NCBI RefSeq assembly: GCF_029688865.1
Contig: NZ_JARUKV010000003.1
Location: 1-64,000 of the forward strand
Reading direction: 5' to 3'
From: Natronococcus sp. A-GB7
Lineage (GTDB): Archaea > Halobacteriota > Halobacteria > Halobacteriales > Natrialbaceae
Length of the DNA stretch: 64,000 nt
Part shown: in pieces, positions 19,871 through 49,677 of the stretch
How the letters are laid out: the number at the start of each line of letters is the position of its first letter
How positions within the stretch are numbered: position 1 is the first letter of the stretch
Translations under genes and position numbers: made by a program
The notes under the pieces: model-generated
Databases searched by the model: none
What the model saw: the letters and a program-made list of their open reading frames with translations, nothing else
What the model was told of the DNA's origin: nothing

Positions 19871-20685
19871 CGGTCGATCACCGTCGGCACGCGGCCGAAC
19901 CGCTGGACCGCCGCGAGGACGGCCAGCGTGATGCCGAGCAGCGCCAGCGCGAGCGGGACGATCGCGTCGATACCGCCGGCGATGAACTCCACCCAGATCC
20001 GTGTCGGCATCGTCCGCGGGTTGTACGCGACCATCATCGTCGCGCCGAACTCGCCGATCGCCCGCGCGAACGTCAGGACGATCCCCGCGACGATCGCGCC
20101 GCGAGCCAGCGGTAGCGAGACGTTCCAGAACGTCGAGAGCGGCCCGTAGCCGAGCGATCGGGAGGCCTGTTCCAGCCGTTCGTCGACCGCGCCGAACCCG
20201 GCACGAGCGGTGATGATCACGAACGGCGCAGCGACGAACGTCTGTGCGAGGATCACGCCGAGCAGGCTATCGGTAAGCGGGATGCCGACCGCCGCGGCGG
20301 CGGCGCCGATGGGGGTGAACCGGCCGACGGCGGTAAGCAGCATCGCGCCGCCGACGACCGGCGGGACGATCAGCGGCAGGATCACCAGCGCCTCGACGAG
20401 CCGCTTTCCGACGAACGACCTGCGGGCGAGGACGTACGCAAGCGGGACCCCGAGGACGGTCGAGATCGCCGTCGAAACGGGAGCGGTAAGCAGCGAGTTG
20501 CGGATCGCCACCCGGGCCTCCGGCGTCGACAGCTCCCCGACGACGTCGACCGCGCCGGTTCGGGCCAGGAACGCGACGAACGGGATCGCGAAGTAGACGA
20601 GGACGAGTCCGCCCAGCAGCGCGGGAACGAGCAGTTCAGGCAGCCGGCTCGAGCCACGGGTCGGGAAGCGCCTGGCGAGGCTCAC
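19867..20685 (-). CDS. wtpB: Tungstate/molybdate ABC transporter permease
   Basis: A 272-residue permease with six membrane helices. The ABC permease EAA-type loop is present near EQASRSLGYGPLSTFWNVSL, which should contact the ATPase. Homology is to WtpB/ModB/CysU-type permeases. It starts at ATG 20685, overlapping the binding-protein gene by 4 nt, and overlaps the ATPase gene likewise, so the three are translationally coupled. Confidence 0.85.
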   Translation of the reverse strand: MSLARRFPTRGSSRLPELLVPALLGGLVLVYFAIPFVAFLARTGAVDVVGELSTPEARVAIRNSLLTAPVSTAISTVLGVPLAYVLARRSFVGKRLVEALVILPLIVPPVVGGAMLLTAVGRFTPIGAAAAAVGIPLTDSLLGVILAQTFVAAPFVIITARAGFGAVDERLEQASRSLGYGPLSTFWNVSLPLARGAIVAGIVLTFARAIGEFGATMMVAYNPRTMPTRIWVEFIAGGIDAIVPLALALLGITLAVLAAVQRFGRVPTVIDR

Positions 20686-21632
20686 GCGTCGATCGCCTCC
20701 GGGAGGTCGCCTTCGGGACGCGGAAGGCTGTCGCCGACGGTCAGCCCGGCCTCGACCAGCGGGTCGGATTCGTCGGCAAGGAACTGGACGAGGTCGCGAC
20801 CCGCGTCCGGTTCGTCGGCCTCGTCGTTCACCGTGGCGTTGTACAACACCGGTCGCCCTTCCGCGGTGTACCCCTCCTCGTCGGTCGTGAACTCGACCGT
20901 CGCGTAGTGGTCGGCCAGCCCGGGCTCCCCGAAGTTGTACGCGTCGGGAAACTCGAGGAAGGGCATGCCGTGGTCGACCGCCATGTTCCGGTAGACGACG
21001 GACGCGGCTCGAGAGCCGCTCTCGACGCCCGCCATCATCTGGGGCTCGTCGGGTTCCTCGGAGACGAGCTCCAGCAACTCGTCGCGAAGCCCCTCGATAC
21101 CGTGCTCGGCTTCGGCCAGCTCGAACGCCTGGACGGCGCGGTAGCCGAGCGGATCGAGGTCGGGGTCACCGATGGAGATGTCGCCTTCCTCGGTCGCGAG
21201 CGCCAGCTCGTACCAGGGCTCGCCGTTCTCGAGTCCGCGTCCGAACGTCGTTTCCTCGTCGTACCCGATGCCGACGCTGTTGGTCGCGAACTCGACGTCC
21301 CAGTCGGTGAACTCGCCGTACAGTCGGTCCCGAAGCAGGGTCGCATCGGCGCTCACGATGACGTCGGGGTGTTTGGTACGATCCTCGACCATCCGCATGA
21401 CCGCGTTCGCCCCGTAGTACTCGCCGTGTACCTCGAACCCGGTTTCGTCCTCGAACGCTGGACCGACGTGGTCCTCGAACGTGTGAGCGAGGCTTCCGGC
21501 CGCCAGCACGCTGACCGACGCGGAGTCGCTGCCGAGACAGCCCGCCACGGCCGTTCCGGCGAGACCGCCCACTGTGGCGAGGACCGAACGACGGGTTCGA
21601 AGACCGCTGCCGCTACTCCCGTCCCGTGTCAT
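20682..21632 (-). CDS. wtpA: Tungstate/molybdate-binding lipoprotein
   Basis: A 316-residue periplasmic-type binding protein. The N-terminus has a Tat-like twin Arg (RTRRSVLATVGGLAG) followed by a lipobox ending AGC, so it is probably Tat-exported and lipid-anchored at about Cys32. The mature part (SVLAAGSLAHTFE, HGEYYGANAVMRM, DVIVSADATLL) matches WtpA/ModA oxyanion binders. It is first in the wtpABC order. Upstream are paired 18-bp dyads that may be operators. A TATA-like TTTCATAC lies about 24-30 nt before the ATG. Confidence 0.9.
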   Translation of the reverse strand: MTRDGSSGSGLRTRRSVLATVGGLAGTAVAGCLGSDSASVSVLAAGSLAHTFEDHVGPAFEDETGFEVHGEYYGANAVMRMVEDRTKHPDVIVSADATLLRDRLYGEFTDWDVEFATNSVGIGYDEETTFGRGLENGEPWYELALATEEGDISIGDPDLDPLGYRAVQAFELAEAEHGIEGLRDELLELVSEEPDEPQMMAGVESGSRAASVVYRNMAVDHGMPFLEFPDAYNFGEPGLADHYATVEFTTDEEGYTAEGRPVLYNATVNDEADEPDAGRDLVQFLADESDPLVEAGLTVGDSLPRPEGDLPEAIDA

Positions 21633-21659
21633 ACACCACTCTCTGTATACGGACAGTAT

Positions 21660-21677
21660 GAAACCTCGTACAGTTTC
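21660..21677. promoter_or_regulatory. Operator-like dyad 1 upstream of wtpA
   Basis: GAAAC at 21660-21664 and GTTTC at 21673-21677 form an inverted repeat separated by 8 nt that includes GTAC. It lies immediately upstream of the probable TATA element of wtpA, where an archaeal activator or repressor could contact the promoter. Confidence 0.5.
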
Positions 21678-21691
21678 CTACTGGCTAAGAA

Positions 21692-21709
21692 GAAACCCGT
21701 ACTGGTTTC
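21692..21709. promoter_or_regulatory. Operator-like dyad 2 upstream of wtpA
   Basis: GAAACC (21692-21697) and GGTTTC (21704-21709) form a near-perfect 18-bp palindrome centred on GTAC. It repeats the pattern of dyad 1 with a start-to-start spacing of 32 bp, about three helical turns, so two dimers could bind on one DNA face. Confidence 0.55.
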
Positions 21710-21966
21710 GTAGACGGTGATAGCAGGCCCGGGAACAGAAACGCGGTCGCTGCTGACCTCGAGCTGTCGCGGCGTTGTTAGGAATCCACGATCGTCGAAA
21801 GCCGTACCTTCGCGGGAACGGAATCGGTATCGATCGATCCACAACTCTCACTGCTACTGATAGTTGAACGCCGGGGACGATCGACCGATAGCCGAGTCGC
21901 TGATGCCGCGTATTTCAGTCTACCCAACAATAAATAAAACCGATATCGTGCGGTCTACGCGGCCGA
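21710..21966. other. Gap upstream of the tungstate operon, no gene
   Basis: Together with the dyads this forms a 334-nt gap between wtpA and the ferredoxin gene. I see no coding frame. An A+T-rich part near 21920-21945 (CAATAAATAAAACC) lies just past the ferredoxin stop; on the minus strand its T-rich run could act as a terminator. Confidence 0.4.
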
Positions 21967-22356
21967 TTAGATGACGCGGTTCTGCAGGTAGTCGAGGTGC
22001 TTCGCGTTGTAGACGATCTGAACCTCGTCGGTCTCGGCGGAACCGATGCAGGTCAGACGGACGTTCTTGTCCTCGACCTCCTCGTCCGAGAGGATCTGCT
22101 GCATGTCCATGTCGATCTCGCCCTCGTAGACGATCGCTGCGCAGTTCGCACAGGCGCCCGCACGGCAGGAGAAGGGCCAGTCGTAGCCCTGCGCCTCGGC
22201 GGCCTCGAGGATGTACTCGCCCTCGGCGACGTCGAGGGTTCCGTAATCCTCCTCGTCGAGGCCGGCGTCGGCGGCTTCGTCGAAGAGGTCGTCGTCGTCC
22301 ATTTCCCAGCCCTGGTCGTCCAGCACTTCGTAGTTGAGGTATTCTACCGTGGGCAT
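21967..22356 (-). CDS. Halophilic plant-type 2Fe-2S ferredoxin
   Basis: A 129-residue ferredoxin. The cluster ligands are C64, C69, C72 ([10 protein letters not shown]) and C103 (LTCIGS). Residues ~10-45 carry the extra acidic insertion typical of halophilic ferredoxins, which stabilises them in high salt. In haloarchaea this protein takes electrons from 2-oxoacid:ferredoxin oxidoreductases. ATG 22356 is preferred over 22359 because homologues start [15 protein letters not shown] box (TATAGC on the plus strand, 22384-22389) lies about 30 nt upstream. Monocistronic. Confidence 0.95.
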
Positions 22357-22382
22357 CACACGACGGTTCGAGTCCCGCCTTG

Positions 22383-22390
22383 GTATAGCT
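22383..22390 (-). promoter_or_regulatory. TATA box for the ferredoxin gene
   Basis: On the minus strand this reads AGCTATAC, about 27-34 nt before ATG 22356, consistent with a leaderless or near-leaderless transcript. Confidence 0.5.
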
Positions 22391-22517
22391 TGCTGTTCGA
22401 TCCGAGGCGCTGCCGGCCACTGCAGGCGTCTACCACTTAATTACGGAACCGGCGAGCAAGTCGGACCGATCGGGGGTCGGACTCGAGTTCGGGCGCGCGG
22501 CCGAACTCGAGGCGCGA

Positions 22518-23699
22518 TCAGAGCCCGAAGATCGGAACGAATCGGAACGTCAGGAACGCGCCGACCGTCGAGATGATGGGGACGACGTTTTGCATCAGGA
22601 CGACGCGGGCCGTCGTCGAGGGATCGAAGAGGTCGGACGCCTGCGGGATGTCTGCGGGTTCCTCCTCGCCGATTTCGGGCGAGCGTTCGCCTTCCTCCTC
22701 GGCGGTCAGGGCGCCGACGGAGACCCTTGTTTCCTCGCCGGCCCTGGCGTCCGAGAGCGTCGTCGTTCTGGTGGCTCGACCCCAGCCGAGCCCGATGATG
22801 CTCATCGTCGCGATGACGACGAAACTCGCGGGAATGCCGATCCACGAGAGTCCGATAACGATCCCCGAACTGATAACCGCGACGACGATCGCGGCGGTCA
22901 GCGGAAGGTTCGTGATATCGTTGCCGAGCGTGTCGAGCGTCCGTCGGGCGATGGTGAAACAGCCGACGGCGACGGCCGCGGAGCCGATCAGGATCAGCGG
23001 AATCATGTCGACGTCGCCGGTGCCGTAGATCGGTGCGATGGCGTTAGCGATGTTGCTCGTCCCCGAGGAAAAGGCCATCAGACAGCCGATCGCGACGACG
23101 ACGAGCGCGCCCGTGATCTCGCGGCGATCGGCGTCGTCCCCGAACCGGAGCTGCGGGGCGAACCCCGATCGGTCGACCGTTATCATCTCGCGTCCCTCCC
23201 GGTTGCCCTCGATGGCGACCCAGGCGTTGATCTGCGGGTAGAAGTAGCGGCCGACGACGCCGGCCACCCAGAACCCGATGATCGGAGCGACGATCCACCA
23301 GATGACGATTTCGCCGAGGACGGCGAAGTCGAGTTCGCCGGTCGCCAACCCGAGCGCGGCGATCGCTCCGACCGCGGTCATCGACGTGGAGGCGGGGACG
23401 CCGGCGTAGTTGCCGATGAACAGCGCACCGCCGATGAAGAAGAGGACGGCGACGTTCGAACGCATCGTAAAGATCGCCGTGTCGGTGACCAGTTCCGCGC
23501 CGAGCGTGTCGACGACGTTCGGGCCGATGGTGATCGCGCCGATGAAGAAGAAGATCGACATCAGCGCGGCAGCCATCAGCTTCGTGATGACGTTCGCTCC
23601 GACCGCCGGTCCGAAGGCGGGGCCGGTCGTTGCACCGCCGATATTGTAGCCGACGAACATCGCAACGAGAAGCCCCACGATAAGCAGTACTTCTGTCAC
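22518..23699 (-). CDS. PiT-family inorganic phosphate permease, copy 1
   Basis: A 393-residue sodium/phosphate-type permease of the PiT family with about ten membrane helices. Two halves each carry the PiT signature region (GANVITKLMAAA near the N-terminus; SSGTSNIANAIAP in the second half). A hydrophilic loop with acidic residues (about 340-365) precedes the last helix. The start is taken as GTG 23699, giving VTEVLLIVGLLVAMFVGYN; the longer frame extends into non-membrane sequence. It is a close paralogue of the gene at 25395-26558 and is divergent from the repeat-protein gene. Confidence 0.88.
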   Translation of the reverse strand: MTEVLLIVGLLVAMFVGYNIGGATTGPAFGPAVGANVITKLMAAALMSIFFFIGAITIGPNVVDTLGAELVTDTAIFTMRSNVAVLFFIGGALFIGNYAGVPASTSMTAVGAIAALGLATGELDFAVLGEIVIWWIVAPIIGFWVAGVVGRYFYPQINAWVAIEGNREGREMITVDRSGFAPQLRFGDDADRREITGALVVVAIGCLMAFSSGTSNIANAIAPIYGTGDVDMIPLILIGSAAVAVGCFTIARRTLDTLGNDITNLPLTAAIVVAVISSGIVIGLSWIGIPASFVVIATMSIIGLGWGRATRTTTLSDARAGEETRVSVGALTAEEEGERSPEIGEEEPADIPQASDLFDPSTTARVVLMQNVVPIISTVGAFLTFRFVPIFGL

Positions 23700-24116
23700 A
23701 GTACTAGCCACAGGATCCGTCCGTAAAAACACGCCTATTTGCGGCGTACCCGGCGACCGTACCCGCCTCGAGTCGATGCTGTCATCAGTGTGTCTCGAAA
23801 CGGTACGGGTTCGTTGCGAAGCCCGTCGGCGTTCCGCACAGAAGCAAAGCGACGCTTCGAGACGGCCGTGATACCGGACGATTCGCTCGATACCGGGGGA
23901 GTTCCCGAACCGCTCCTTCGACGGTTCGTGAGAGGGTTCGATCCTAAAGAACTTCAACAGTCATACCCTGGAATACAGTATCATGTACGCCGATCGGAAA
24001 CTCGTCTCGAGGAATCGTCAGGGAAGGACCGGAACGGGTCCGCAGGGGGACGAAGAGTTCGCTATCGACGAGCGTTCGAAAACCGTCCGATCCACGCGTG
24101 TCGGTGGCGGTCGGCT
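23700..24116. other. Long gap between phosphate permease and repeat-protein genes
   Basis: This 417-nt gap lies between divergent genes. On the minus strand a TATA-like GTTTTTACG lies about 23-31 nt before the permease GTG. An A+T-richer stretch at about 23942-23987 may hold the promoter of the rightward gene, which would leave a leader of about 100 nt. A frame runs open through here (from 23739), but its composition is unlike protein. Confidence 0.45.
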
Positions 24117-24869
24117 ATGCTAAACCCGGTTCGGGTCGACGCGGCCGTCGACCTCGCCTACGGAGCACTGATCGCGCTCTCGATCGTGCTGATCATGGTG
24201 CTCGGAACGAACGTCGGGATCGCGTTCGGAGTCGGCGTGTTCGCCTCGTACGTCGTCCACGTCGTCTGGAAGATGGCGCGCTTCGATCCCGATTGGATGA
24301 CCACAGCCGTTCAGGAATCGGTCGAAGAGAGTGTCGGCGAGACCGTCGAGGAACGGGTCGGCGAGACTGTCGAAGAAACCGTCGGTGAGACCGTCGAGAA
24401 AAGCGTCGAGGAGACCGTCGGCGAAACCGTCGAAGAGACCGTCGGCGAAACCGTCGAGGAGCGGGTCGGTGAGACCGTCGAGAGAAGCGTCGAAGAGAGC
24501 GTCGGTGAAACCGTCGAGGAGCGGGTCGGCGAAACCGTCGAAGAGACTGTCGAGGAGCAGGTCGGCGAAACCGTCGAGAAAAGCGTCGAAGAGACTGTCG
24601 GCGAAACCGTCGAGGAGAAGGTGGGAGAAACCGTCGAGAAGCGGGTCGGTGAGACCGTCGAGGAGGCCGTCGAGCGAACCGTCGGCAAACGCCTCGAGGA
24701 GATACAGGCGGAGGTCAAAGCCGTCGACGAACGAATCGATCGCCGGCCCCGAGAGGACGAGATCGAGGAACTTCTCGAGGACGACGACGGCGAGGGGACG
24801 GAACGCGACGACGGCAAGGAGACGGAGCACACCGACGACGAGCAGGCGGAGCGCACCGACGACGACTGA
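24117..24869 (+). CDS. Membrane-anchored V-x-E-x tetrapeptide-repeat protein
   Basis: A 250-residue protein I cannot assign to a family. Residues ~8-52 form two transmembrane helices. Residues 69-192 are 31 uninterrupted tetrapeptides, each beginning with Val (mostly VGET alternating with VEE[TRSK]), then LEEI. Residues ~193-225 look like a normal charged helix, and the last ~35 residues are an acidic Asp/Glu/Thr tail. The repeat should be a long Glu-rich helix, or an unusual solenoid, projecting from the membrane. Synonymous codon differences between units (GTC GGC/GGT, GAG/GAA) suggest an old repeat held by protein-level selection. It sits between two PiT phosphate permeases and beside a UspA gene. 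Confidence 0.75.
   Translation: MLNPVRVDAAVDLAYGALIALSIVLIMVLGTNVGIAFGVGVFASYVVHVVWKMARFDPDWMTTAVQESVEESVGETVEERVGETVEETVGETVEKSVEETVGETVEETVGETVEERVGETVERSVEESVGETVEERVGETVEETVEEQVGETVEKSVEETVGETVEEKVGETVEKRVGETVEEAVERTVGKRLEEIQAEVKAVDERIDRRPREDEIEELLEDDDGEGTERDDGKETEHTDDEQAERTDDD
24321..24692 (+). repeat. 31 tandem 12-bp units encoding V-x-E-x
   Basis: Every 12 bp begins with a Val codon (GTC, once GTG), with no insertion or deletion across 372 bp. Units usually alternate GTCGGCGAAACC-like and GTCGAGGAGCGG-like versions, giving an apparent 24-bp higher-order period. Departures from alternation (two VEE-type units in a row) occur about five times. Confidence 0.9.
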
Positions 24870-24928
24870 TCGACGTGTGAACGATTACGCTGTCGTTTCC
24901 GCGGCCGTTCGATTCGCTGCGTGAGCGG

Positions 24929-25354
24929 TCACCGAACGACGACCACCGGTACCGGCGACTGGTGGACGACCTTCTTCGCGACGTTGCCGACGTAGAGATT
25001 GTCGGCGATCGTCCCGCCGTGGCTGCCGATAACAACCGTCTCGTAGTCGTCGGCGCGGTTGATTATCGCGCGAACGGGATGGCCCAGCTCGTAGACGGTC
25101 TCGAGGTCTGCGTCACCGTCGGCGTCCGAAACGATCTCGCGCGCCCGTTCGAATATCGACCGCGCGGCTTCCTCCGCCGCTTCCTCGAGGTTGTCGGCGA
25201 GCGCGAGCCCCGTCGCTTTCCCCCACATCGACGACGGTTCGCCGACGACGGTCAGGACGGTTATCTCGGCGTCCGGATACACCTCGAGGGCGTACTCGAG
25301 GGCGTGTTCGCTCATCTCCGAGTCGTCCATCGGAACGAGAACGCGTGAGACCAT
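24929..25354 (-). CDS. Universal stress protein UspA family
   Basis: A 141-residue single-domain Usp. The N-terminal VLVPMDDSEMSEHALEYAL and the C-terminal ATP-binding loop GSHGGTIADNLYVGN, followed by PVPVVVV, are characteristic of the ATP-binding class. These proteins sense or buffer stress and nucleotide state, and in archaea often sit beside transporters. Here it lies 40 nt upstream of the start side of nothing else on its strand but only 40 nt past the PiT copy 2 stop, so it probably has its own promoter. A functional link to phosphate uptake is an inference from position. Confidence 0.9.
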   Translation of the reverse strand: MVSRVLVPMDDSEMSEHALEYALEVYPDAEITVLTVVGEPSSMWGKATGLALADNLEEAAEEAARSIFERAREIVSDADGDADLETVYELGHPVRAIINRADDYETVVIGSHGGTIADNLYVGNVAKKVVHQSPVPVVVVR

Positions 25355-25394
25355 ACGCGATCTACGTCGGGGCCGCGAATAAATCCGGAGGGAG

Positions 25395-26558
25395 TCAGAA
25401 CAGCTCGAGGGTGGTAAAGAAGCCGTAGGCGAGCGCCGTCGACATCGACGGGCCGATGATCCACATCGAGAGGTACTTTACGACCGCTCGCGGGTTGAAC
25501 AGGTCGCTCGCATCGAGAGCCTGTTCTGACTCCTCCTCCCCGATCTGCGTGACTGGCGCGTCCGGCTCCGCCCGCAGTGCCCCCATCGAGAGTTCGGTGT
25601 CGGTGTTGCCGCGAATCGCCTCCCGGGCCGTGATCGGACGGGTCGCTCGTCCCCAGCCGAGACCGACGATCGTCATCACCGACCCCATCACGAGACTGAT
25701 CGGAATGCCAGCCCACGAGAGGAGTGTGGTGATCGTCGAAGCCGTGATCATGACGATCAGCGCCGCGAGCAGCGGAATGTCACTGAGTTCGCCGCCGACC
25801 GACTCCATCGTCCGCCGGGCGATCGTAAAGCCGCCGAACCCGATCGCAACCGTCGCGAGGACGATCGCGGGCTCCTCGGAAAGCGCGCCGCTGCTGACGA
25901 GCGGGGCGACGGCGTTTGGGACGTTGCTCGCACCGGCGCTGAACGCCATATAGCAGCCGACGACGAGGACGACGATCGTTCCGCCGAGTTCCTGGAACGT
26001 CGTGTTCGGGCCGAACGAGGGCAGTGGAACTGAACCGTTACGATCGAGAACCAGCAACGGTCCCGCCGAGTTGCGGATCTCGAATCGCCGGTTGAGCTCC
26101 GGGTACACGTATCGGCCGATCGTCGCGCCGACCCAGAATCCGATCACTGGCGTGACGGCCCACCACGTGATGATCCAGCCGATGACCTCGACGTTGAGCG
26201 TGTCGGTCGCCAACCCGAGCCCTGCGATCGCGCCGACGGTCGTCATCGACGTCGGAACCGGGACACCGAAGACGTTCGCGATGAGGATCCCCAGCCCGAT
26301 GAAAAAGAGGACGGCTACCCCCGCGGTGAGCGATATTTCGATCGCGATGATGTCGCCGGCCAGCGTGTCCATAACGTTCCGGCCGACGGTCCACCCGCCC
26401 AGAAAGACGAAAAACGTCATCAGTGCTGCCGCAGTCGTCTTTCCGAGGATCCCGGCCCCGACCGCGGGACCCCACGCGATCCCCGTCGACGAACCGCCGA
26501 TATTGAACCCGACGAAGAGGGAGGCGACGATCCCGACCAGCAACACGGTTTCGACCAT
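25395..26558 (-). CDS. PiT-family inorganic phosphate permease, copy 2
   Basis: A 387-residue paralogue of copy 1, sharing the opening FVGFNIGGSSTGIAWGPAVG, the central SAGASNVPNAVAP signature, the WGRAT loop and the acidic GEEE...DASDLFNP segment before the final helices. About ten membrane helices. The ATG 26558 start gives MVETVLLVGIVASLFVG. The two copies flank the repeat protein and UspA and are likely an old duplication that has since diverged. Confidence 0.88.
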   Translation of the reverse strand: MVETVLLVGIVASLFVGFNIGGSSTGIAWGPAVGAGILGKTTAAALMTFFVFLGGWTVGRNVMDTLAGDIIAIEISLTAGVAVLFFIGLGILIANVFGVPVPTSMTTVGAIAGLGLATDTLNVEVIGWIITWWAVTPVIGFWVGATIGRYVYPELNRRFEIRNSAGPLLVLDRNGSVPLPSFGPNTTFQELGGTIVVLVVGCYMAFSAGASNVPNAVAPLVSSGALSEEPAIVLATVAIGFGGFTIARRTMESVGGELSDIPLLAALIVMITASTITTLLSWAGIPISLVMGSVMTIVGLGWGRATRPITAREAIRGNTDTELSMGALRAEPDAPVTQIGEEESEQALDASDLFNPRAVVKYLSMWIIGPSMSTALAYGFFTTLELF

Positions 26559-26654
26559 CAGTAGATAGAACGGGCGTATTCGAGGAACAAATAGTGTGTC
26601 GAATCCATCCCGTTTTCGACTGCCGGCATCGCGCCGACGGTACCCCTGGTCGGA

Positions 26655-28511
26655 TCAGACCCCCCAAAAGTAGGCGATCCCGAGCACGGTGACGATCGAC
26701 AGGATCAGCTGCAACGGCGCGCCGACCCGGAAGTAGTCGCTGAAGCGATACCCGCCGGGCCCGTAGACGAACAGGTTCGTCTGGTAGCCGATCGGTCCCA
26801 GAAAGGAGGTGCTGGCGGCGAAGGTCACCGCGAAGACGAACGCGAGCGGGTTCGCGCCGATCCCCGCCGCTGCGGCCGCCCCGACCGGAACCATCAGGAC
26901 GACGCTCGCGTTGTTACTGATGACCTCCGTGATCAGCCCCGTGACGATGTAGAACAGCCAGAGGACGACGATCGTCGGCAGGAAGCCGGCCGTCGAGACG
27001 ACCAGCCACGCGAGGTAGGCCGCGGCGCCCGACCCCTCGAGGGCGATCCCCAGCGGGATCACGCCCGCCAGCAGGAAGATGATGTCCCACTCGACGGCCT
27101 CGTACAGTTCGTGTGGCTCGAGGACGCCCGTGACGACCATCGCGACGACGCCCGCGAGCGCGGACAGCAGGATCGGATAGAGCCCGGCGGCGGCGACGGC
27201 GACGACGCCGATCATGATGGCGACGGCGATCGGTGCCTTGTCGGCGCGGTACTCCGGACGGGGTGGCTCGCGGGCGACGATCACGTCCTCCCGGCGCGAG
27301 AGCCGATCGAGCGTCTCCTGTGGAGCCTGGACGAGCAGCGTGTCACCGACGTCGAGCCGTCGACCGACGATCCGTTCGTTGACGAGTTCGCCCCGGTGCC
27401 GAAGCCCGAGGACTGCCGCGCCGAACTCCTCGCGGAACGACTCCGGGTCGAGCCGTTCGCCGACGAGCCGGGAGTCGAGCGCGACGATCAGTTCGGTCAC
27501 GGTCCCCGTCTCGTCGTTCGTCGAGAGATCCGCAACCGAATCCGGCTTGCCGACGTGTTCGACCCCCTCGAGGTCCTCGAAGGCTGCGATCGCCGACCGT
27601 TCGGTGCGGACGACGAGGACGTCACCTTCCCGCAGCTGGACGTCCTGTCTGGGAGCGACCGAGCGATCCCGATCCCGGACGACCTGAACGATGTCGATGT
27701 CCGACCCGAACCGATCGGTCGCGTCGCCGACGGTCTCGCCGGCCAGGGGAGAGCCGGGAACCACCGCAACCTCGGCGATGTAATCGCTGACCGCGTACTC
27801 CTCCAAGTAGTCCGCCCGTGGGGGCACCCGTTCGGGGATGAGGTAGTGGCCGACGACGATCAGGTACAGCGCCCCCGTGACGACGACGATCGCACCGAGC
27901 TGGGTAAACTCGAACATCGAAAAGGCGTGAAGCTCGGGATACTCCTCGCTCAGTCGGCCGCTGATGTTGCTCGCGAGCAGGTTCGTCGACGTGCCGATCA
28001 GCGTGAGCATCCCACCGACCTGGGAGGCGTACGACAGCGGAATCAGCAGCTTCGAGGGCGACGTGTTCCCCCGGTTCGCGACGTCGGTGACGACCGGGAC
28101 GAGCAGGGCGACGATCGGCGTGTTGTTGAGAAAGCCCGAGGCGGGACTCGTCGCGAGCACGGTCGCGAACAGCTGCTTGTGGATGCTGTCGCCCGCGTAG
28201 GCGGCCATCCGTCGGCCGAGTTCCTGGACGAGACCGGTGCGGGCGACACCCCCGCTCAGGATCAGCATCGCGAGCACCGTGATCGTCGCGTCGTTCGAGA
28301 AGCCCGAGACGCCGGTGCTCGGGTCGACGCCGGTCCAGGGCTCGAGAACGACCAGCACGACGATCAACAGGATCGCGGTGACGTCGATCGGGAGCCGCTC
28401 GGTGAGAAACAGGACGAGCGCGAGGGCGACGACGCCGAGAACGACGAGGATGTCCGTCGTCAGCTCCGGCTGGGTCGTCACGTCCTGGGCGAGCACCAGG
28501 CTCTCCGGCAT
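26655..28511 (-). CDS. SLC13/DASS-family permease with two TrkA-C domains
   Basis: A 618-residue permease. About five helices at the N-terminus are followed by a cytoplasmic pair of TrkA-C (RCK-C) domains at about residues 235-400, and then about six more helices. The transport helices carry SLC13-type motifs (GFLNNTPIVALLVPV, TLIGTSTNLLASN, and a second NNASVVLMVPV). Such proteins move sulfate, phosphate or dicarboxylates with sodium; the RCK-C domains likely bind a regulatory nucleotide. The start ATG 28511 is chosen as the first with a membrane-compatible N-terminus. It follows PiT copy 2 in the same transport cluster. Confidence 0.88.
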   Translation of the reverse strand: MPESLVLAQDVTTQPELTTDILVVLGVVALALVLFLTERLPIDVTAILLIVVLVVLEPWTGVDPSTGVSGFSNDATITVLAMLILSGGVARTGLVQELGRRMAAYAGDSIHKQLFATVLATSPASGFLNNTPIVALLVPVVTDVANRGNTSPSKLLIPLSYASQVGGMLTLIGTSTNLLASNISGRLSEEYPELHAFSMFEFTQLGAIVVVTGALYLIVVGHYLIPERVPPRADYLEEYAVSDYIAEVAVVPGSPLAGETVGDATDRFGSDIDIVQVVRDRDRSVAPRQDVQLREGDVLVVRTERSAIAAFEDLEGVEHVGKPDSVADLSTNDETGTVTELIVALDSRLVGERLDPESFREEFGAAVLGLRHRGELVNERIVGRRLDVGDTLLVQAPQETLDRLSRREDVIVAREPPRPEYRADKAPIAVAIMIGVVAVAAAGLYPILLSALAGVVAMVVTGVLEPHELYEAVEWDIIFLLAGVIPLGIALEGSGAAAYLAWLVVSTAGFLPTIVVLWLFYIVTGLITEVISNNASVVLMVPVGAAAAAGIGANPLAFVFAVTFAASTSFLGPIGYQTNLFVYGPGGYRFSDYFRVGAPLQLILSIVTVLGIAYFWGV

Positions 28512-28629
28512 ACCTCCTTCCGACACGGACCCGACAGGTAACAGTTCCGGACGATCGCCGAACACTCCGCGCCCGATGGCAGTCGTCGAAACCGTCGCCT
28601 TTACTCGCCCCGACCGCGCGCACTCGAGT

Positions 28630-29361
28630 ATGCAACCAAACGGGTTCGAGGTGATCCCCGCGGTGGACGTTCAGAACGGCGAGGTCGTCCAGCTGGTCCA
28701 GGGCGAGCGCGGCACCGAGAAGACGTACGGCGACCCCGTCGAGGCCGCCGAACGGTGGATCGACGCCGGCGCGGAGACGCTGCATCTGGTCGATCTCGAC
28801 GGCGCCTTCGAGGGCGAACGACGAAACGCTGATGCCATCGACGCGGTGATCGACGCCGTCGACGTTCCGACGCAACTGGGTGGCGGGATCCGAACCGCCG
28901 AGGACGCCGTCGACCTGCTCGAGCGCGGCGTCGATCGGGTCATCCTCGGGACGGCGGCGGTCGAGAACCCGGACATCGTCGCCGAGATCAGCGAGACGTA
29001 TCCCGACAGCGTGGTCGTAAGTCTCGACGCGAAAGACGGCGAGGTCGTCGTCGAAGGTTGGACCGAGAGTGCGGGAATCACGCCCGTCGAGGCCGCCGAA
29101 CGGTACGCGGAGCTCGGCGCGGCTGCGATCTTGTTCACGAACGTCGACGTCGAAGGACAGCTCGAGGGCGTCGCCACCGAACCCGTCCGGGAACTCGTCG
29201 GGGCGACCGAGATTCCGGTGATCGCCAGCGGCGGGGTCGCGACCCTCGAGGACGTCCGGGCGCTCGAAGAGGCCGGCGCGGCCGCGGTCGTCGTCGGGAG
29301 CGCGCTGTACGAGGGCAACTTCACGCTCGAGGAGGCGCAGGCGGCCGTCGCCGAGGACTAA
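28630..29361 (+). CDS. hisA: ProFAR isomerase, histidine biosynthesis
   Basis: A 243-residue TIM-barrel isomerase converting ProFAR to PRFAR in histidine synthesis. Typical segments: PAVDVQNGEVVQLVQG with the catalytic Asp near the N-terminus, LHLVDLDGAF, LGGGIRT, VVSLDAKDGEV with the second Asp, and IASGGV as a phosphate-binding loop. Length is normal. It is monocistronic here, separated from hisB by trkH and a small membrane protein gene on the other strand. Confidence 0.95.
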   Translation: MQPNGFEVIPAVDVQNGEVVQLVQGERGTEKTYGDPVEAAERWIDAGAETLHLVDLDGAFEGERRNADAIDAVIDAVDVPTQLGGGIRTAEDAVDLLERGVDRVILGTAAVENPDIVAEISETYPDSVVVSLDAKDGEVVVEGWTESAGITPVEAAERYAELGAAAILFTNVDVEGQLEGVATEPVRELVGATEIPVIASGGVATLEDVRALEEAGAAAVVVGSALYEGNFTLEEAQAAVAED

Positions 29362-29374
29362 TCGCGCCCGTCGG

Positions 29375-30904
29375 CTACGACTTCCAGAACGCCGGCGTGA
29401 GCAACACGAGCACCGGAATGATCTCGATGCGGCCGATCCACATCATGATCACCATCACCGCTCGAGAGGTGACCGAGAAGCCGGCGTAGTTATCGAGCGG
29501 GCCGGCCCGCTCGAACGCGGGACCGATATTGAGGAAGATCGACGCCGAGGCGCCCATTGCCTCGAACTCGCCGACCGGGTCGCTAGTGCGGGCCGCGTCG
29601 ACGACCACGAAGATCGTCAGCAGGAAGAAGATGACGAGCGTGAGCAGGATGTAGGCGTAGATGTCCCGAACGGTCTCCTCGTCGACGACCTCGTCGCCGA
29701 GCCGGAGCGGACGGATCGCTTCGGGGTGGACCGACGTGAAGAGGCTTCTGCGGAACGCCTTCAGCGTCACCAGCCAGCGCAGCGACTTGATCGAGCAGGT
29801 CGTCGACCCGGCCATCCCGCCGATGAACATACAGAGAAACAGGAGGTGTTTCGCGCCGGGGCCCCACAGATCGAAGTCCGTCGAGGCGTAGCCCGTCGTC
29901 GTCACCAGCGAGGCGACGTTGAAGACCCCGTGGCGGATCGTCGGCTCGAAACCCGTGTTGACGTCTGGATCCAGCAGGAGGATCGCCACGACCAGGGCGG
30001 CGAAAAACGCCAGCACGCCGACGTAGAAGCGAAACTCCTGAGACTCGAGGGGTCGACGGTAGTCGCCCTGTGTCACGTAGTACAGCAGGACGAAGTTGGT
30101 CGATCCCAGGATCATGAAGGGGATGATCGCCCACTGGACGACCGGCGAGAAGGCGCCGGCGCTGCCGGGTTCCGGCGAGAAGCCGGCGGTGGCGACGCTG
30201 GTCAGCGCGTGGGCGACGGCGTTGAACGCATCCATGTTGGGACCGAGCCCGACCAGGTGGAGCGTGTAGAACGTCGCCGCCGCCAGCACGGTGACGCCGA
30301 CGTACAGCCCCCAGATGAGCCGAGCGGTGTCGCTGATGTGAGGACGGAGTTTGCGGACGTTTCGGGTCTGGGACTCGGTCTCCATCAACTGGGCGCCACC
30401 GACCATCAGGCTCGAGAGCAGCCCGATCGCAACGATCAGGATCCCGAGGCCGCCGAGCCACTGGATCAGCTGGCGCCAGAGCAAGATCGCCCGCGACTGG
30501 TTCTCGAAGTCCCAGCCGCTCATCACGGTCGCACCCGTCGTCGTGAGTCCGCTCATGCTCTCGAACAGGGCGTTGACAGGGCCGCCGAGCCCGCCGTAGA
30601 ACGCAGACTGTGGGCCGGCCGCGAGCCCGACCAACAGGAAGGGAACGGCGCCGACCGCCGCGACCCCGAGCCAGGTAATCGCAACCATCAAGAACGCCTC
30701 CCGCTGGCCGAGCGAGCGCTCCGCGGAGAGGGTCTCGAGGGCGAGTCCGATCGCCGCCGTGAGGACGATCGCGACCAGAAACGGGATCGGGTCGTCGCCG
30801 TCGAGCATCGCGAGTGCCAGCGGAGCCGCTAACGGAACGGCGAGCCACTTGAGCACCGTCCCGGTGAGGCTACAGCTCGAGCGCCAGTCGACGCGAATTG
30901 TCAC
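29375..30904 (-). CDS. trkH: TrkH-family potassium uptake protein
   Basis: A 509-residue membrane subunit of a Trk-type potassium transporter. It has four pseudo-repeats with selectivity-filter loops: SGLTTTGATV, TSVATAGFS, SLVTTTGYAST and an N-terminal-to-C-terminal series ending SASIFLNIGPAF. The start is GTG 30904 (VTIRVDWRSS). TrkH normally works with a soluble TrkA-type RCK protein; none is adjacent, although RCK-C domains occur in the SLC13 protein nearby. The 3' end lies 13 nt from the hisA stop. Confidence 0.92.
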   Translation of the reverse strand: MTIRVDWRSSCSLTGTVLKWLAVPLAAPLALAMLDGDDPIPFLVAIVLTAAIGLALETLSAERSLGQREAFLMVAITWLGVAAVGAVPFLLVGLAAGPQSAFYGGLGGPVNALFESMSGLTTTGATVMSGWDFENQSRAILLWRQLIQWLGGLGILIVAIGLLSSLMVGGAQLMETESQTRNVRKLRPHISDTARLIWGLYVGVTVLAAATFYTLHLVGLGPNMDAFNAVAHALTSVATAGFSPEPGSAGAFSPVVQWAIIPFMILGSTNFVLLYYVTQGDYRRPLESQEFRFYVGVLAFFAALVVAILLLDPDVNTGFEPTIRHGVFNVASLVTTTGYASTDFDLWGPGAKHLLFLCMFIGGMAGSTTCSIKSLRWLVTLKAFRRSLFTSVHPEAIRPLRLGDEVVDEETVRDIYAYILLTLVIFFLLTIFVVVDAARTSDPVGEFEAMGASASIFLNIGPAFERAGPLDNYAGFSVTSRAVMVIMMWIGRIEIIPVLVLLTPAFWKS

Positions 30905-38213: not shown

Positions 38214-39278
38214 TTACTCCTCGGCGTCGCCGAAGTACGCCTCGGCGCCGGGATGGAGATCGATCGGCATCCCGTCCTGGGCGGATTCGACGTCGATGAA
38301 GTCGGCCTGGGTGGTGAACTGATCGGTGTTGTCGAAGATCGCCGTCGTGACGTCCTCGACGATCTCGTCGTCCATCCCGTCGTGGGTGGCGATCATCGCC
38401 TGGACCGAAACCGTCTCCACGTCGTCGTCGACGCCGTCGTACGTTCCGCCGGGGATCGTGTCCTCGGCGAGCCACTCGGCCTCGTTCATGAGGTCCTCGC
38501 GAAGGTCCTCCTCGACCTCGACGAACGCGATATCCTGATTCACCGCGAGGTCCTCGATCGCGCCGAGAGGCCACCCGCCTACGGTGACCGCGGCGTCGAC
38601 GTCGCCGTCGCCGATCTGGTCGGCCGCCGTCCCGAAGTCGGTGTTTTGCTCGTCGAAGTCCTCGACGCCCGCGGTCTCGAGGATCTGCAGGGCGTTGACC
38701 TGCGTCCCGCTGCCGACGTCGCCGGTGTTGACCGAGGCCCCCTCGAGATCCTCGACGGTTTCGATGCCCGAGTCGGCCTGGGTGACGATGTGAATCGTCT
38801 CCGGGTACAGCGAGGCGATCCCGCGGAGGTTCTCGACGGGTTCGCCCTCGAACTCCTCGATGCCGGTGCCGTTGAACGCGAAGTAGGCGATGTCGTTCTG
38901 AATCAGCGCGAAGTCGGCCTCCTCCCGCTGGAGACTGCCGACGTTCTCGACGCTCGCGCCGGTCGACTGCACCTGGATGCCGTGTGGCGAGTGCTCCTCG
39001 ACGATGGACTTCACGTCACCCGACAGCGGGTAGTACGTCCCCTCGGTACCGCCCGCGTGCCAGGAGAGGACCTCCCCACCTTCGTCCGGTTCCGCCTCGC
39101 CGAAGTCTTCCTCCTCGCCGTTGGCGTCGTCGTCGCCGTTGGCGTCGTCGTCGCCATTGGCATCGTCGTCGCCGTTGGCCTCCTCTTCGGCGTCTTCGCC
39201 GATACAACCGGCGAAACCCACGATTCCAGCAGCCCCACCGAGCGCAATGAACTTGCGCCGCTTGATATGTCGAACCAT
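38214..39278 (-). CDS. TAXI-family TRAP solute-binding lipoprotein
   Basis: A 354-residue binding protein. It has a Tat-like N-terminus with a lipobox (GIVGFAGCIGED) and then an acidic linker with NGDDDA repeats (residues ~33-60). The TAXI core follows (SWHAGGTEGTYYPLSGDVKSI, STGASVENV, GDVGSGTQVNAL). TAXI proteins often bind glutamate, glutarate-type dicarboxylates or similar, but the ligand here is unknown. It is first in the operon; a TATA-like CTATTAAC lies 25-32 nt upstream. Confidence 0.92.
   Translation of the reverse strand: MVRHIKRRKFIALGGAAGIVGFAGCIGEDAEEEANGDDDANGDDDANGDDDANGEEEDFGEAEPDEGGEVLSWHAGGTEGTYYPLSGDVKSIVEEHSPHGIQVQSTGASVENVGSLQREEADFALIQNDIAYFAFNGTGIEEFEGEPVENLRGIASLYPETIHIVTQADSGIETVEDLEGASVNTGDVGSGTQVNALQILETAGVEDFDEQNTDFGTAADQIGDGDVDAAVTVGGWPLGAIEDLAVNQDIAFVEVEEDLREDLMNEAEWLAEDTIPGGTYDGVDDDVETVSVQAMIATHDGMDDEIVEDVTTAIFDNTDQFTTQADFIDVESAQDGMPIDLHPGAEAYFGDAEE
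39119..39173 (+). repeat. Three 18-bp tandem units in the binding-protein linker
   Basis: GTTGGCGTCGTCGTCGCC is repeated three times with two or three mismatches, in frame with the minus-strand gene. It encodes the acidic linker NGDDDA behind the lipid anchor. Slippage here would change linker length without frameshifting. Confidence 0.8.
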
Positions 39279-39475: not shown

Positions 39476-41659
39476 ATGAACCGGATCGAGGCGGCTGACT
39501 ACCACGACCTCGTACAGCCCGCAGATCCCCGACTCTCGCCGGGGGGAGACCGCGTCGCGTTCGTCCGTCGGACGCCGGAGGACGAGGAGACGACCGAGGC
39601 GACGATTCACGTCGTTCCCGTCGGTGGCGACGAACCGCGACAGTTCACCGCGGCCGACGGCGTCGACGGCCAGCCCCGCTGGAGCCCCGACGGCGACCGA
39701 CTCGCGTTCGTCAGCACGCGCGGCGAGGGCGACCGACAACAGCTGTGGCTCCTGCCGACCGACGGCGGCGAGGCTCGGCGTCTCACGGGTGTCGTCGGCG
39801 GAGTCGGCGACCTCGAGTGGAGCCCCGACGGCTCCCGGTTGCTCTTTGCCCAGCAGGTTAGCGAGGGCGACCGCGAAGAGGGGCGCGACGTCGCGGTCGA
39901 TCCCGACTACGAACCTGAGACACCCGACCCGCGCGTGATCGATCGGATGATCTACCGCGCCGGAACGGAGTACATGGACGGACGCCGGAGCCACGTCTAC
40001 GTCCTCGACGTCGAGGCGGCCCTCGAGGGTGGCGTCGATCACGGAGACGACGACGCGGGCGCGGCGATCACCCGGCTTACCGACGGCGACGCCGACTACG
40101 TCGGCCCGACGTGGGGCGACTCCGAAACCGTCTACTACGCGACGAAAGCGGGCGAACAGCCCGACGATTCGGTGACGTACGACCTCCTCGAGCACGAGCT
40201 CGGAACCGACGAGCGCACCGAATTCACGCAGACGACGGGCTGGATCAGCGGGCTCGAGGCGACGGCCGACGGCCGGGTCGCCTTCGAGTACACCGACGAG
40301 GAACGGCTGACGCTCGGGCAGACCGAACTCCGCGTCCACGACCGCTCGAGCGGGACCGAGACGACGCCGACGGAGCTGCTCGATCGGACGATCGGTCACA
40401 ACTCGGCGTTCGAGTGGGACCCTGAGGGCGAGTCGCTGTACTTCACGACGCCGGACGAGGGGTCGCGGGTGCTCTGGTCGGTTCCCGGCGACGGGAGCGA
40501 GGAGCCGACCCGCGTCTACGGCGAGGGCGTCACCGTCGAGTCGTTCTCGGTTGGGACTGACGCCGTCGCCGTCGCCCAAAGCGAGTGGGACCACCCTGGC
40601 GATCTGTTCCTCACGACCCGCGGCGGCGCCGAGACGGTCAGACTGACCAGGGTCAACCACGAGTACCTCTCGGATCGGGCCGTCCGCCAGCCAGAGGAGG
40701 TGTGGTTCGAGAGCGACGGACACGAGATCCAGGGCTGGCTGCTCACGCCGCCGGAGTTCGGCGGCGAGGGACAGCGCGCCTCGGAAGCGTCGAGCGAGCA
40801 GGGCTCGCGAGGCCCCGACGAGACCTACCCGCTGGTCGTCGAGATCCACGGCGGTCCCCACTCCCAGTGGACGACGTCAGGGACGATGTGGCACGAGTTC
40901 CAGACCCTGGCCGCGCGGGGGTACGTCGTCTTCTGGTCGAACCCGCGAGGGTCGACGGGCTACGGCGAAGCCCACGCGAGCGCCATCGAGCGCGACTGGG
41001 GCGACGTCACGCTGACCGACGTGCTCGCGGGCGTCGACGTCGTCTGCGAGCGCGACTACATCGACGAGGACGAGCTGTACGTCACCGGCGGGAGCTTCGG
41101 CGGGTTCATGACCGCCTGGACGGTCGGACAGAGCGACCGCTTCAGGGCTGCGGTCTCCCAGCGCGGCGTGTACGATCTCTCCAGCTTCTACGGCTCGACG
41201 GACGCGTTCAAGCTCATCGAGGGCGATTTCGGGACGACCCCCTGGGAGGAGCCGGAGTTCCTCTGGGAACGATCACCCGTCGCCCACGTCCCGAACGTCG
41301 AGACCCCGACGCTCGTGCTCCACTCCGATCGGGACTACCGGACCCCCGCGAACACCGCCGAGCTGTTCTATCTCGGCCTGCAGAAACACGGCGTCGACAC
41401 GCGGCTCGTCCGCTACCCCCGCGAGGGCCACGAGCTCTCCCGCAGCGGCGAGCCGGGCCACGTCGTCGACCGCATCGAACGCATCGTCCGCTGGTTCGAC
41501 GGCTACTCCACCTACAGCGAAGCACCGCTGGCCCTCGAGCGCGAGCGCGACGACGGACTCTCGAGCGCGATGGACGAGACCGAAGGCGACGAGAGCGAGG
41601 GGGACGGCAACGATGGCGGCGAGAGCGAGACGGAAGACGCGGGCGGGACCGACGAGTAG
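39476..41659 (+). CDS. S9-family prolyl oligopeptidase-like serine peptidase
   Basis: A 727-residue protein. An N-terminal seven-bladed propeller with TolB-like repeats (PRWSPDGDRLAF, LEWSPDGSRLLF) gates a C-terminal alpha/beta hydrolase peptidase. The catalytic Ser is S540 in GGSFGGFM, with Asp at about 618-620 (HSDRDYRTP) and His at 652 (REGHEL). ATG 39476 is preferred over GTG 39464. The C-terminal ~50 residues are an acidic Glu/Asp/Gly tail not seen in bacterial members. It is a cytoplasmic peptidase of acylaminoacyl/oligopeptidase type with undefined specificity. Confidence 0.93.
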   Translation: MNRIEAADYHDLVQPADPRLSPGGDRVAFVRRTPEDEETTEATIHVVPVGGDEPRQFTAADGVDGQPRWSPDGDRLAFVSTRGEGDRQQLWLLPTDGGEARRLTGVVGGVGDLEWSPDGSRLLFAQQVSEGDREEGRDVAVDPDYEPETPDPRVIDRMIYRAGTEYMDGRRSHVYVLDVEAALEGGVDHGDDDAGAAITRLTDGDADYVGPTWGDSETVYYATKAGEQPDDSVTYDLLEHELGTDERTEFTQTTGWISGLEATADGRVAFEYTDEERLTLGQTELRVHDRSSGTETTPTELLDRTIGHNSAFEWDPEGESLYFTTPDEGSRVLWSVPGDGSEEPTRVYGEGVTVESFSVGTDAVAVAQSEWDHPGDLFLTTRGGAETVRLTRVNHEYLSDRAVRQPEEVWFESDGHEIQGWLLTPPEFGGEGQRASEASSEQGSRGPDETYPLVVEIHGGPHSQWTTSGTMWHEFQTLAARGYVVFWSNPRGSTGYGEAHASAIERDWGDVTLTDVLAGVDVVCERDYIDEDELYVTGGSFGGFMTAWTVGQSDRFRAAVSQRGVYDLSSFYGSTDAFKLIEGDFGTTPWEEPEFLWERSPVAHVPNVETPTLVLHSDRDYRTPANTAELFYLGLQKHGVDTRLVRYPREGHELSRSGEPGHVVDRIERIVRWFDGYSTYSEAPLALERERDDGLSSAMDETEGDESEGDGNDGGESETEDAGGTDE

Positions 41660-47489: not shown

Positions 47490-48365
47490 CTACTCGTCGA
47501 ACCACTCCTGGGTGATCTCGTCGTACTCGCTGGATTCCTCGACGGCCGCGATCCCCTCGCTGAGCGCTTCTTGGAGGTCCTCGTCGTCCTGTCGAACCCC
47601 GAAACCGTACTCCTCGCCGGTCTCGAAGGTGAAGGCGATCTCGACGTCCCGGTCGCCCGCGAACGACTCGGCGACCGGTTCGTCGATGACGATCGCGTCC
47701 AAGGTGCCGCGCTCGAGTTCCTCGACGGCGAGGACGTAGTTGTCGTAGGAGGTGTAGTCGACGTCGTCGCCGAGTTCGTCCTCGACGACGCCCTCGCCCG
47801 TGGTTCCGGACTGGGCGCCGACCTCGAGGCCTGCGAGGTCCTCGAGTTCGTCGGGCTCGACGTCCCCGCCGGACTGGACCAGTACGGACTGGTCGGCGCT
47901 GTAGTACGACTCCGTAAAGGCGATCGACTCCTCCCGTTCCTCGGTGATCGTCATCGCCGCGGCGATGACGTCGATGTTCTCGTTCTCGAGGGCGGGGATC
48001 AGCGAGTCGAACTCGAGTTCCTCCCAGTCGCCGAGTTCGTACTCGGTCTCGGCGACGACGGCCTCGAGCAGGTCAATGTCGAAGCCGACGAGTTCGCCGT
48101 CGACGTTCATCTGGAAGGGTTCGAACCCCGGCGCGGTACCGGGAACGATCGTCTCGCCCTCCGTATCGCCGTTGCCGTTCTCGCCGTCGTCGGCGACGTC
48201 TTCGTCGTCTCCGTTTTCGTCGTCCTCGTCGTCCCCGTTTCTGTCGTCCCCGTTCCCCTCGGCGTCCTCGAGACAGCCGGCCAGACCGATCGTCGTGGCA
48301 ACCCCGGCTCCCCCGGCCAGCGTCAGGTACTCCCGCCTGTCGAATCTCCGCTGCTGATCGCGCAT
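47490..48365 (-). CDS. Polar amino acid-binding lipoprotein
   Basis: A 291-residue SBP of the family 3 type. The N-terminus has twin Arg-like basic residues (RRFDRREYLTLAGG) and a lipobox ending LAGC. An acidic Asn/Gly/Asp/Glu linker of about 35 residues follows. The core includes GFEPFQMNVDGELVGFDIDLLEAV and AAMTITEEREESIAFTESYY, which are characteristic. ATG 48365 is preferred over 48401. It is first in the four-gene operon. Confidence 0.92.
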   Translation of the reverse strand: MRDQQRRFDRREYLTLAGGAGVATTIGLAGCLEDAEGNGDDRNGDDEDDENGDDEDVADDGENGNGDTEGETIVPGTAPGFEPFQMNVDGELVGFDIDLLEAVVAETEYELGDWEELEFDSLIPALENENIDVIAAAMTITEEREESIAFTESYYSADQSVLVQSGGDVEPDELEDLAGLEVGAQSGTTGEGVVEDELGDDVDYTSYDNYVLAVEELERGTLDAIVIDEPVAESFAGDRDVEIAFTFETGEEYGFGVRQDDEDLQEALSEGIAAVEESSEYDEITQEWFDE

Positions 48366-48489: not shown

Positions 48490-49677
48490 ATGGTCGAACT
48501 CGTGACGGTCGCGACGTTCCTGATCGCCGCAGTTGCCAGTCTCTTTATGGCCTGGGCGATCGGCGCCGGCTCGAGTGGGTCGACCCCGTTCGCCCCCGCG
48601 GTCGGGGCGAACGCGATCTCGGTGATGCGGGCCGGTTTCTTCGTCGGCATTCTCGGGTTCGCTGGCGCGGTGTTGCAGGGAGCGAACGTCTCCGAGGCGG
48701 TCGGGACGGAGCTGATCGGCGGCGTAACCCTGTCGCCGGCGGCCGCGACGATCGCCCTGATCATCGCCGCCGGACTCGTCGCGATCGGCGTCTTCGCGGG
48801 GTATCCAATCGCGACCGCGTTTACCGTCACCGGTGCCGTCGTCGGCGCCGGACTCGCGATGGGCGGCGACCCCGCCTGGTCGAAATACGCCGAGATCGTC
48901 ACCCTCTGGGTTCTGACGCCGTTCGTCGGCGGTGGGATCGCCTACGCGATCGCGCGAACGCTGCGAGCCGAACCGATCGCCGAGGAGTACCTCATCGTCG
49001 CGCTGGCGGCGCTGATCGGAGTCATCGTCGCCAACATCGAGTTCGCCGTCCTCGGGCCGCCCGACGGCGGGGCGTCGATCGCCCGAGCGGCCAGCGGCTG
49101 GATGCCGGGAAGCGATATCGTCGGTATCGTCGCGATGACGGCACTCATCGCGGCCCTCTGGGCGATCGTCATCGGATACGACCTCCGTAACGGGGTCGAA
49201 CGCGGCGAGCGACACTTCCTCCTCCTGCTCGGCGGGCTCGTCGCCTTCTCCGCCGGCGGCAGCCAGGTCGGGCTCGCGATCGGACCGCTGATCCCGCTGT
49301 CGGGCGACGTCGGGCTGCCGCTGTTCGCCCTGCTCGTCGGCGGCGGGTTCGGACTGCTGCTCGGCTCCTGGACCGGCGCGCCGCGGATGATCAAGGCGAT
49401 CTCGCAGGACTACTCCTCGCTCGGTCCCCGGCGGTCGATCGCCGCGCTGATCCCGTCGTTCGCCATCGCGCAGGTCGCCGTACTGTTCGGCATTCCCGTC
49501 TCGTTCAACGAGATTATCGTCAGTTCGATCATCGGTAGCGGCTACGCCGCCGGCTCCGGTGGCGGCGTCAGCGCCAGCAAGATGGGCTACACCGTCCTCG
49601 CCTGGGTGCTCTCGCTTGCCGGGTCGATCGTTATCGCGTTCGGAGGATATCTCGCCATCGAGGCCATCCTGCTCTAG
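48490..49677 (+). CDS. PiT-family inorganic phosphate permease, copy 3
   Basis: A 395-residue permease with about ten helices. The PiT halves are represented by AIGAGSSGSTPFAPAVGANAISVMRAGFF at the N-terminus and GSGYAAGSGGGVSASKMGYT near the C-terminus. It is clearly more divergent than copies 1 and 2 and lacks their acidic pre-C-terminal loop, so it belongs to another branch. It is alone with its own promoter region, divergent from the amino acid operon. Confidence 0.88.
   Translation: MVELVTVATFLIAAVASLFMAWAIGAGSSGSTPFAPAVGANAISVMRAGFFVGILGFAGAVLQGANVSEAVGTELIGGVTLSPAAATIALIIAAGLVAIGVFAGYPIATAFTVTGAVVGAGLAMGGDPAWSKYAEIVTLWVLTPFVGGGIAYAIARTLRAEPIAEEYLIVALAALIGVIVANIEFAVLGPPDGGASIARAASGWMPGSDIVGIVAMTALIAALWAIVIGYDLRNGVERGERHFLLLLGGLVAFSAGGSQVGLAIGPLIPLSGDVGLPLFALLVGGGFGLLLGSWTGAPRMIKAISQDYSSLGPRRSIAALIPSFAIAQVAVLFGIPVSFNEIIVSSIIGSGYAAGSGGGVSASKMGYTVLAWVLSLAGSIVIAFGGYLAIEAILL

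Follow-up and report, generated by a model that had tools for sequence, protein, structure and literature searches.

DUF485 (YjcH), a small membrane protein with two helices, is encoded immediately before the secondary transporter ActP. DUF4212 is a small two-helix subunit that partners sodium/solute symporters, and it is present in haloarchaea. In other prokaryotes, genes for PhoU-like DUF47 accessory proteins lie next to pit genes. Glycophorin-type (small-xxx-small) right-handed transmembrane helix pairs are short and membrane-embedded, use i/i+4 residues with beta-branched neighbors, and cross at 40 degrees. Alpha-helical coiled coils, including the right-handed hendecad (11/3) and pentadecad (15/4) forms, are built on regular hydrophobic anchors. 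Their accessible period ranges from 3.33 to about 3.9, the most extreme known value being 3.8, in YadA, and a period of 4.0 is named as outside the range (PMC4786415).

The window analyzed here, a 64,000-nucleotide stretch of DNA from Natronococcus sp. A-GB7, encodes a protein that joins a predicted two-helix membrane hairpin to a long array of Val-anchored tetrads. The gene, its parts, and its neighbors are as follows.

24117..24866, + strand: protein with hairpin and Val-tetrad tail, CDS of 250 aa, stop codon at 24867-24869
24117..24299, + strand: conserved two-helix membrane hairpin, residues 1-61, ending in WKMARFDPDWM (conservation, hydropathy, AF2)
24309..24692, + strand: Val-x-E-x tetrads, 32 in succession, residues 65-192 (sequence; register conserved in the family)
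24693..24776, + strand: heptad-spaced block LEEIQAEVKAVDERID, then RRPREDEIEELL, residues 193-220 (conserved in two alignments)
24777..24866, + strand: Asp-rich C-terminal tail, residues 221-250, no regular structure predicted (sequence, AF2)
22518..23684, - strand: PiT phosphate permease 1 (PHO4 family), divergent neighbor (Pfam PF01384, E 3e-38)
24929..25354, - strand: UspA-like universal stress protein, convergent neighbor (Pfam PF00582, E 8e-22)
25395..26558, - strand: PiT phosphate permease 2 (Pfam PF01384, E 3e-38)

The open reading frame, its frame and its end agree with the initial annotation, as do the N-terminal membrane anchor and, by their Pfam matches, the two PiT permeases and UspA gene around it. 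The start at 24117 is backed by homology, with relatives beginning at the same Met or one residue later; the same frame stays open 5′ of 24117 as far as 23739. Another PiT (PHO4) permease gene lies at 48577-49638 (+) of the window, and the genome has seven. No RNA families were detected in positions 20000-29500. With a probability of about one half, the product is a small PiT accessory membrane protein that carries a helical cytosolic stalk of variable length and works with the adjacent permease.

The protein belongs to a real, haloarchaea-specific family that is so far unnamed. Searched with the 66-residue hairpin, 45 of 61 related genomes contained a relative, and a family profile built from 38 relatives of the hairpin matched 41 of the 53 Halobacteriales genomes sampled and none of 242 other genomes of the phylum. 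A GTDB genome scan yielded 178 stretches encoding a relative; among the matches listed (80 of 178), all are haloarchaeal, and their genera include Natronorubrum, Natrialba, Natrinema, Halorubrum, Haloferax, Halobaculum, and Halorientalis. All matches of a tail search at E 1e-6 fell on family loci (some of them antisense), except one in genome G044. This gene (L179, 942-1778, +) was missed by the family profile and turned out to belong to the family as a distant member, with a divergent hairpin (IDVIYG...GYGLNVWGKMEF) and V/A tetrads. One genome (G020) has two copies on L043, around 7001 and ~4.7 kb downstream, each with its own PiT permease. On annotated plasmids the gene is either unannotated or labeled 'hypothetical protein'. 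Viral contigs held no relative, and a viral origin of the gene was rejected on that ground.

No Pfam or NCBIfam model reached its cut-off for the whole protein or the hairpin. Whole-protein matches to DUF2884, DUF445, ser_rich_anae_1, MarP, GvpQ, and others were rejected; as they lie below the curated cut-offs and mostly on the repeat, they are read as low-complexity noise. Hairpin matches to VirB3, TrbD, or DUF485 (E 0.02-0.3) were set aside as generic two-helix similarity. PDB sequence searches with the hairpin or the tail as query gave no significant match, and no literature on the family was found among open-licence papers.

The layout of the locus resembles that of DUF485 and ActP, and the WKMARFDP of the hairpin resembles the WRANGEFD end of YjcH. 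ActP, however, is of another transporter family, and DUF485 lacks a long tetrad tail. Homology to DUF485 (PF04341) was rejected, with an hhalign probability of 3.5%, a best E of 0.05 among 38 members, and 10.2 bits for the window protein against a cut-off of 28. The likeness would be one of similar working, not of membership. DUF4212 (PF13937) was likewise rejected as a homolog (hhalign probability 1% over 9 columns). The PhoU-like DUF47 proteins are soluble helical bundles, unlike the membrane hairpin, and no PhoU/DUF47 Pfam match was found at E 0.1 with the whole protein or at E 1 with the hairpin.

The hairpin is the conserved part of the family. Seventeen of its positions are invariant in 38 sequences: P4, D8, D12, Y15, G16, G40, Y45, H48, W51, K52, M53, R55, F56, D57, P58, W60, and M61. 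Hydropathy indicates two membrane helices, which AF2 places at residues 4-29 and 31-55 of the window protein, with pLDDT near 77-80 from residue 11 to 50. Helix 2 is followed by a basic WKMAR, suggesting by the positive-inside rule that both ends are cytosolic. In the proposed arrangement the hairpin would lie beside the permease in the membrane, its N and C termini both cytosolic, and the acidic tail of Val tetrads would form an alpha-helical stalk that associates with itself or binds a partner. Such a stalk would cluster or stabilize the permease, or present it to cytosolic partners. An accessory subunit is the simplest reading of the conserved hairpin, its membrane-proximal acidic residues and His, the length-tolerant stalk, and the symporter neighbor.

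The tail is regular to an unusual degree. Residues 65-192 are 32 Val-anchored units in a row, followed by LEEI, and the longest Val-every-4 run in 5000 shuffles of the tail was 7. The exact period of four in the initial annotation stands and its count of 31 does not; Glu, described there as almost always present at position 3, occupies it in 27 of 33 units, the other 6 having Lys or Arg. Position 2 holds Glu in 19 units and Gly in 13, and position 4 is Thr or Ser in most units. The 33 units comprise 14 distinct tetrapeptides and 24 distinct 12-mers, so the units differ by synonymous changes; VGET is spelled by six different codings. The array is therefore no fresh DNA duplication, and the synonymous differences, together with the register kept among relatives, bear out the proposed selection at the protein level.

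Across relatives, the longest in-register run of hydrophobic anchors spans ~6 to 57 units, and unit number differs widely even between close species. This comparison of repeat number, which had been put forward as a check, gave variable length, retained register, and rare out-of-phase indels. Because unit number is not conserved, an exact counting role, one of the functions first suggested, is unlikely, while the scaffolding or tethering proposed alongside it is possible; stalk length would be tolerated rather than serve as a ruler. Of 3514 hydrophobic-to-hydrophobic steps in 105 proteins, 3246 (92%) are exactly four and 200 are three. Among 199 three-steps in 104 proteins, 108 lie just before RRP, in the heptad-spaced block, and 79 sit in V-x-x-V-Q cassettes, two sets that may overlap; 20 tails have no three-step. 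Some relatives, such as that on L038, have 4-4-4-3 spacing. In the window protein, heptad spacing is present at residues 193-207 of the C-terminal block 193-220, which carries RRPRED and is missing from many co-directional and Halorubrum members. Judged by these spacings, the tail obeys helical logic, though many members have almost no three-steps.

A somewhat unlikely alternative is that only the hairpin is functional and the tail is a disordered acidic brush or a low-complexity array that repeat expansion and composition maintain. The wide variation in length among close relatives agrees with it, as do the DNA periods of 12, 24, 36, and 60 in the array (TRF), the net charge of -32 across its 128 residues, and the low AF2 confidence in the tail. 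A brush, however, needs no exact register, and here 92% of steps are four, out-of-phase indels are rare, and the anchors are nearly always Val. The in-register runs consist of Glu (31%), Val (25%), Thr (17%), Gly (7%), Asp (2.8%), and Pro (0.1%); in their scarcity of Pro and Asp they differ from the last 30 residues of the window protein. Such a bias, rich in Glu and poor in Asp and Pro, is more in keeping with a helix than with disordered acidic sequence. The Asp-rich end at 24785-24865 is a 24-bp tandem repeat of 3.4 copies, and similar short acidic repeats also terminate several relatives.

Predicted structure favors a helical stalk in part. AF2 was run on monomers only, from shallow alignments of 22 and 18 sequences; both models are helical. 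The tail helices of the window protein are mostly below pLDDT 50, with no strands, so the structure prediction advised earlier returned a helix of low confidence and no solenoid. A short relative is modeled with helices at residues 4-28, 31-55, 59-99, and 105-121 and a break at RRPRE; a PDB fold search with this model found no match. Helix propensity of the tail is poor because of its Gly, Val, and Thr, at a cost of 0.54 kcal/mol per residue versus 0.38 for GCN4.

The spacing lies outside published coiled-coil geometry. Regular hydrophobic anchors are shared with coiled coils, the tetrad tail adjoins a heptad block, and the 4-4-4-3 of some relatives is pentadecad spacing. In contrast to coiled coils, most tetrad tails keep an unbroken period of 4.0, and their anchors are Val rather than Leu or Ile. 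The 32 unbroken four-steps in the window, and up to 57 in-register anchors elsewhere, exceed the published period range, which upholds the initial view that a four-residue period is abnormal for a coiled coil. Either the tail is no conventional coiled coil or the published limit needs revision. A true 4.0 period would require a right-handed supercoil with a pitch of ~57 Å and, at a radius of 3.3 Å, a computed crossing angle of 40 degrees. It is unlikely that the tail is a long right-handed helical assembly of this kind, used by an accessory subunit of a transporter as a stalk of variable length. As in glycophorin-type pairs, the i/i+4 residues have beta-branched neighbors, but those pairs are short and membrane-embedded and the tetrad array is 128 residues long, acidic, and presumably cytosolic. 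That their steep close packing extends into a soluble acidic array, beyond the coiled-coil limit, is tentatively suggested and rather doubtful.

The accessory role draws on linkage to PiT permeases. A PiT permease lies within 2 kb of the gene in 75 of 112 distinct loci, whose sequences are related and hence not independent; a rough calculation puts the chance of such closeness at ~1% or less for a random gene in a genome of 4 Mb. PiT-linked arrangements are divergent (39), co-directional (23), or convergent (11), and the subfamily of PiT 1 is the usual partner. Gaps in co-directional pairs are mostly short, with PiT 8-36 bp downstream at ~15 loci, and the stop codon of the divergent G044 member overlaps the PiT start at 1775. 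Several changes in the orientation of gene and PiT are needed on the hairpin tree, and each of the six plasmid copies examined (of eight) lies no more than 2 kb from a PiT, in differing surroundings. These orientation changes and plasmid copies are stronger evidence of linkage than the raw counts. Co-occurrence is uninformative because PiT genes occur in nearly every genome (59 of 61, mostly three to seven per genome). The link proposed from the two flanking permeases is supported and is far more general than the window locus.

Conserved linkage, as expected of a transporter accessory subunit, is absent in one part of the family. Of 37 unlinked loci, 25 are of one Halorubrum clade, in which the gene is distant from any PiT, and the partnership is thus not universal. 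A few of the remaining unlinked genes sit on short or cut contigs. In this clade (L089, L098, L119, L056, and others) the gene is kept beside genes that read as tRNA methyltransferase-like, BrkB-like, and PAP2-like, and Usp-like in some. The hairpin protein could accordingly be a general membrane or stress factor with no phosphate role and a merely historical PiT linkage, to which the methyltransferase-like and membrane-enzyme neighbors of the clade and the frequent UspA neighbor would lend themselves. This is quite improbable, since the linkage persists through changes of orientation and moves to plasmids with other surroundings, and the G044 gene runs into the PiT start codon.

No PiT is near the L060 copy, which instead follows, at a distance of ~2 kb downstream, a set of genes reading as pstC, pstA, and pstB (the high-affinity phosphate transporter), and a PhoU-like gene is 3.7 kb from the hairpin-tetrad gene on L098; all these names were read off sequence. 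Both placements are only suggestive.

A new beta-solenoid or beta-helix with four-residue sides and inward Val, as also raised in the initial annotation, would suit the strict short period, the nearly invariant hydrophobic anchor, and the many beta-branched residues and Gly, but it was rejected as highly improbable because the AF2 models have no strand and a weakly helical tail, the best E in the PDB fold search was 5.3, a strand would turn the Val and Glu of a tetrad to one and the same side, and the heptad and 4-4-4-3 spacings mixed in among relatives follow helical logic.

If the PiT accessory role is true, the PiT system gains an accessory subunit from a widespread haloarchaeal family that is unnamed in the libraries searched. 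Coiled-coil theory finds a natural test in the tail, with dozens of in-register four-residue repeats, order-wide, at an 'inaccessible' period. Its structure could reveal a wrong limit, another helix packing in high-salt soluble proteins, or a selected periodicity without a fold. Further short tandem repeats (periods 9-36 bp) occur in the window at 39097-39189, 41563-41638, 48197-48253, and 55996-56022.
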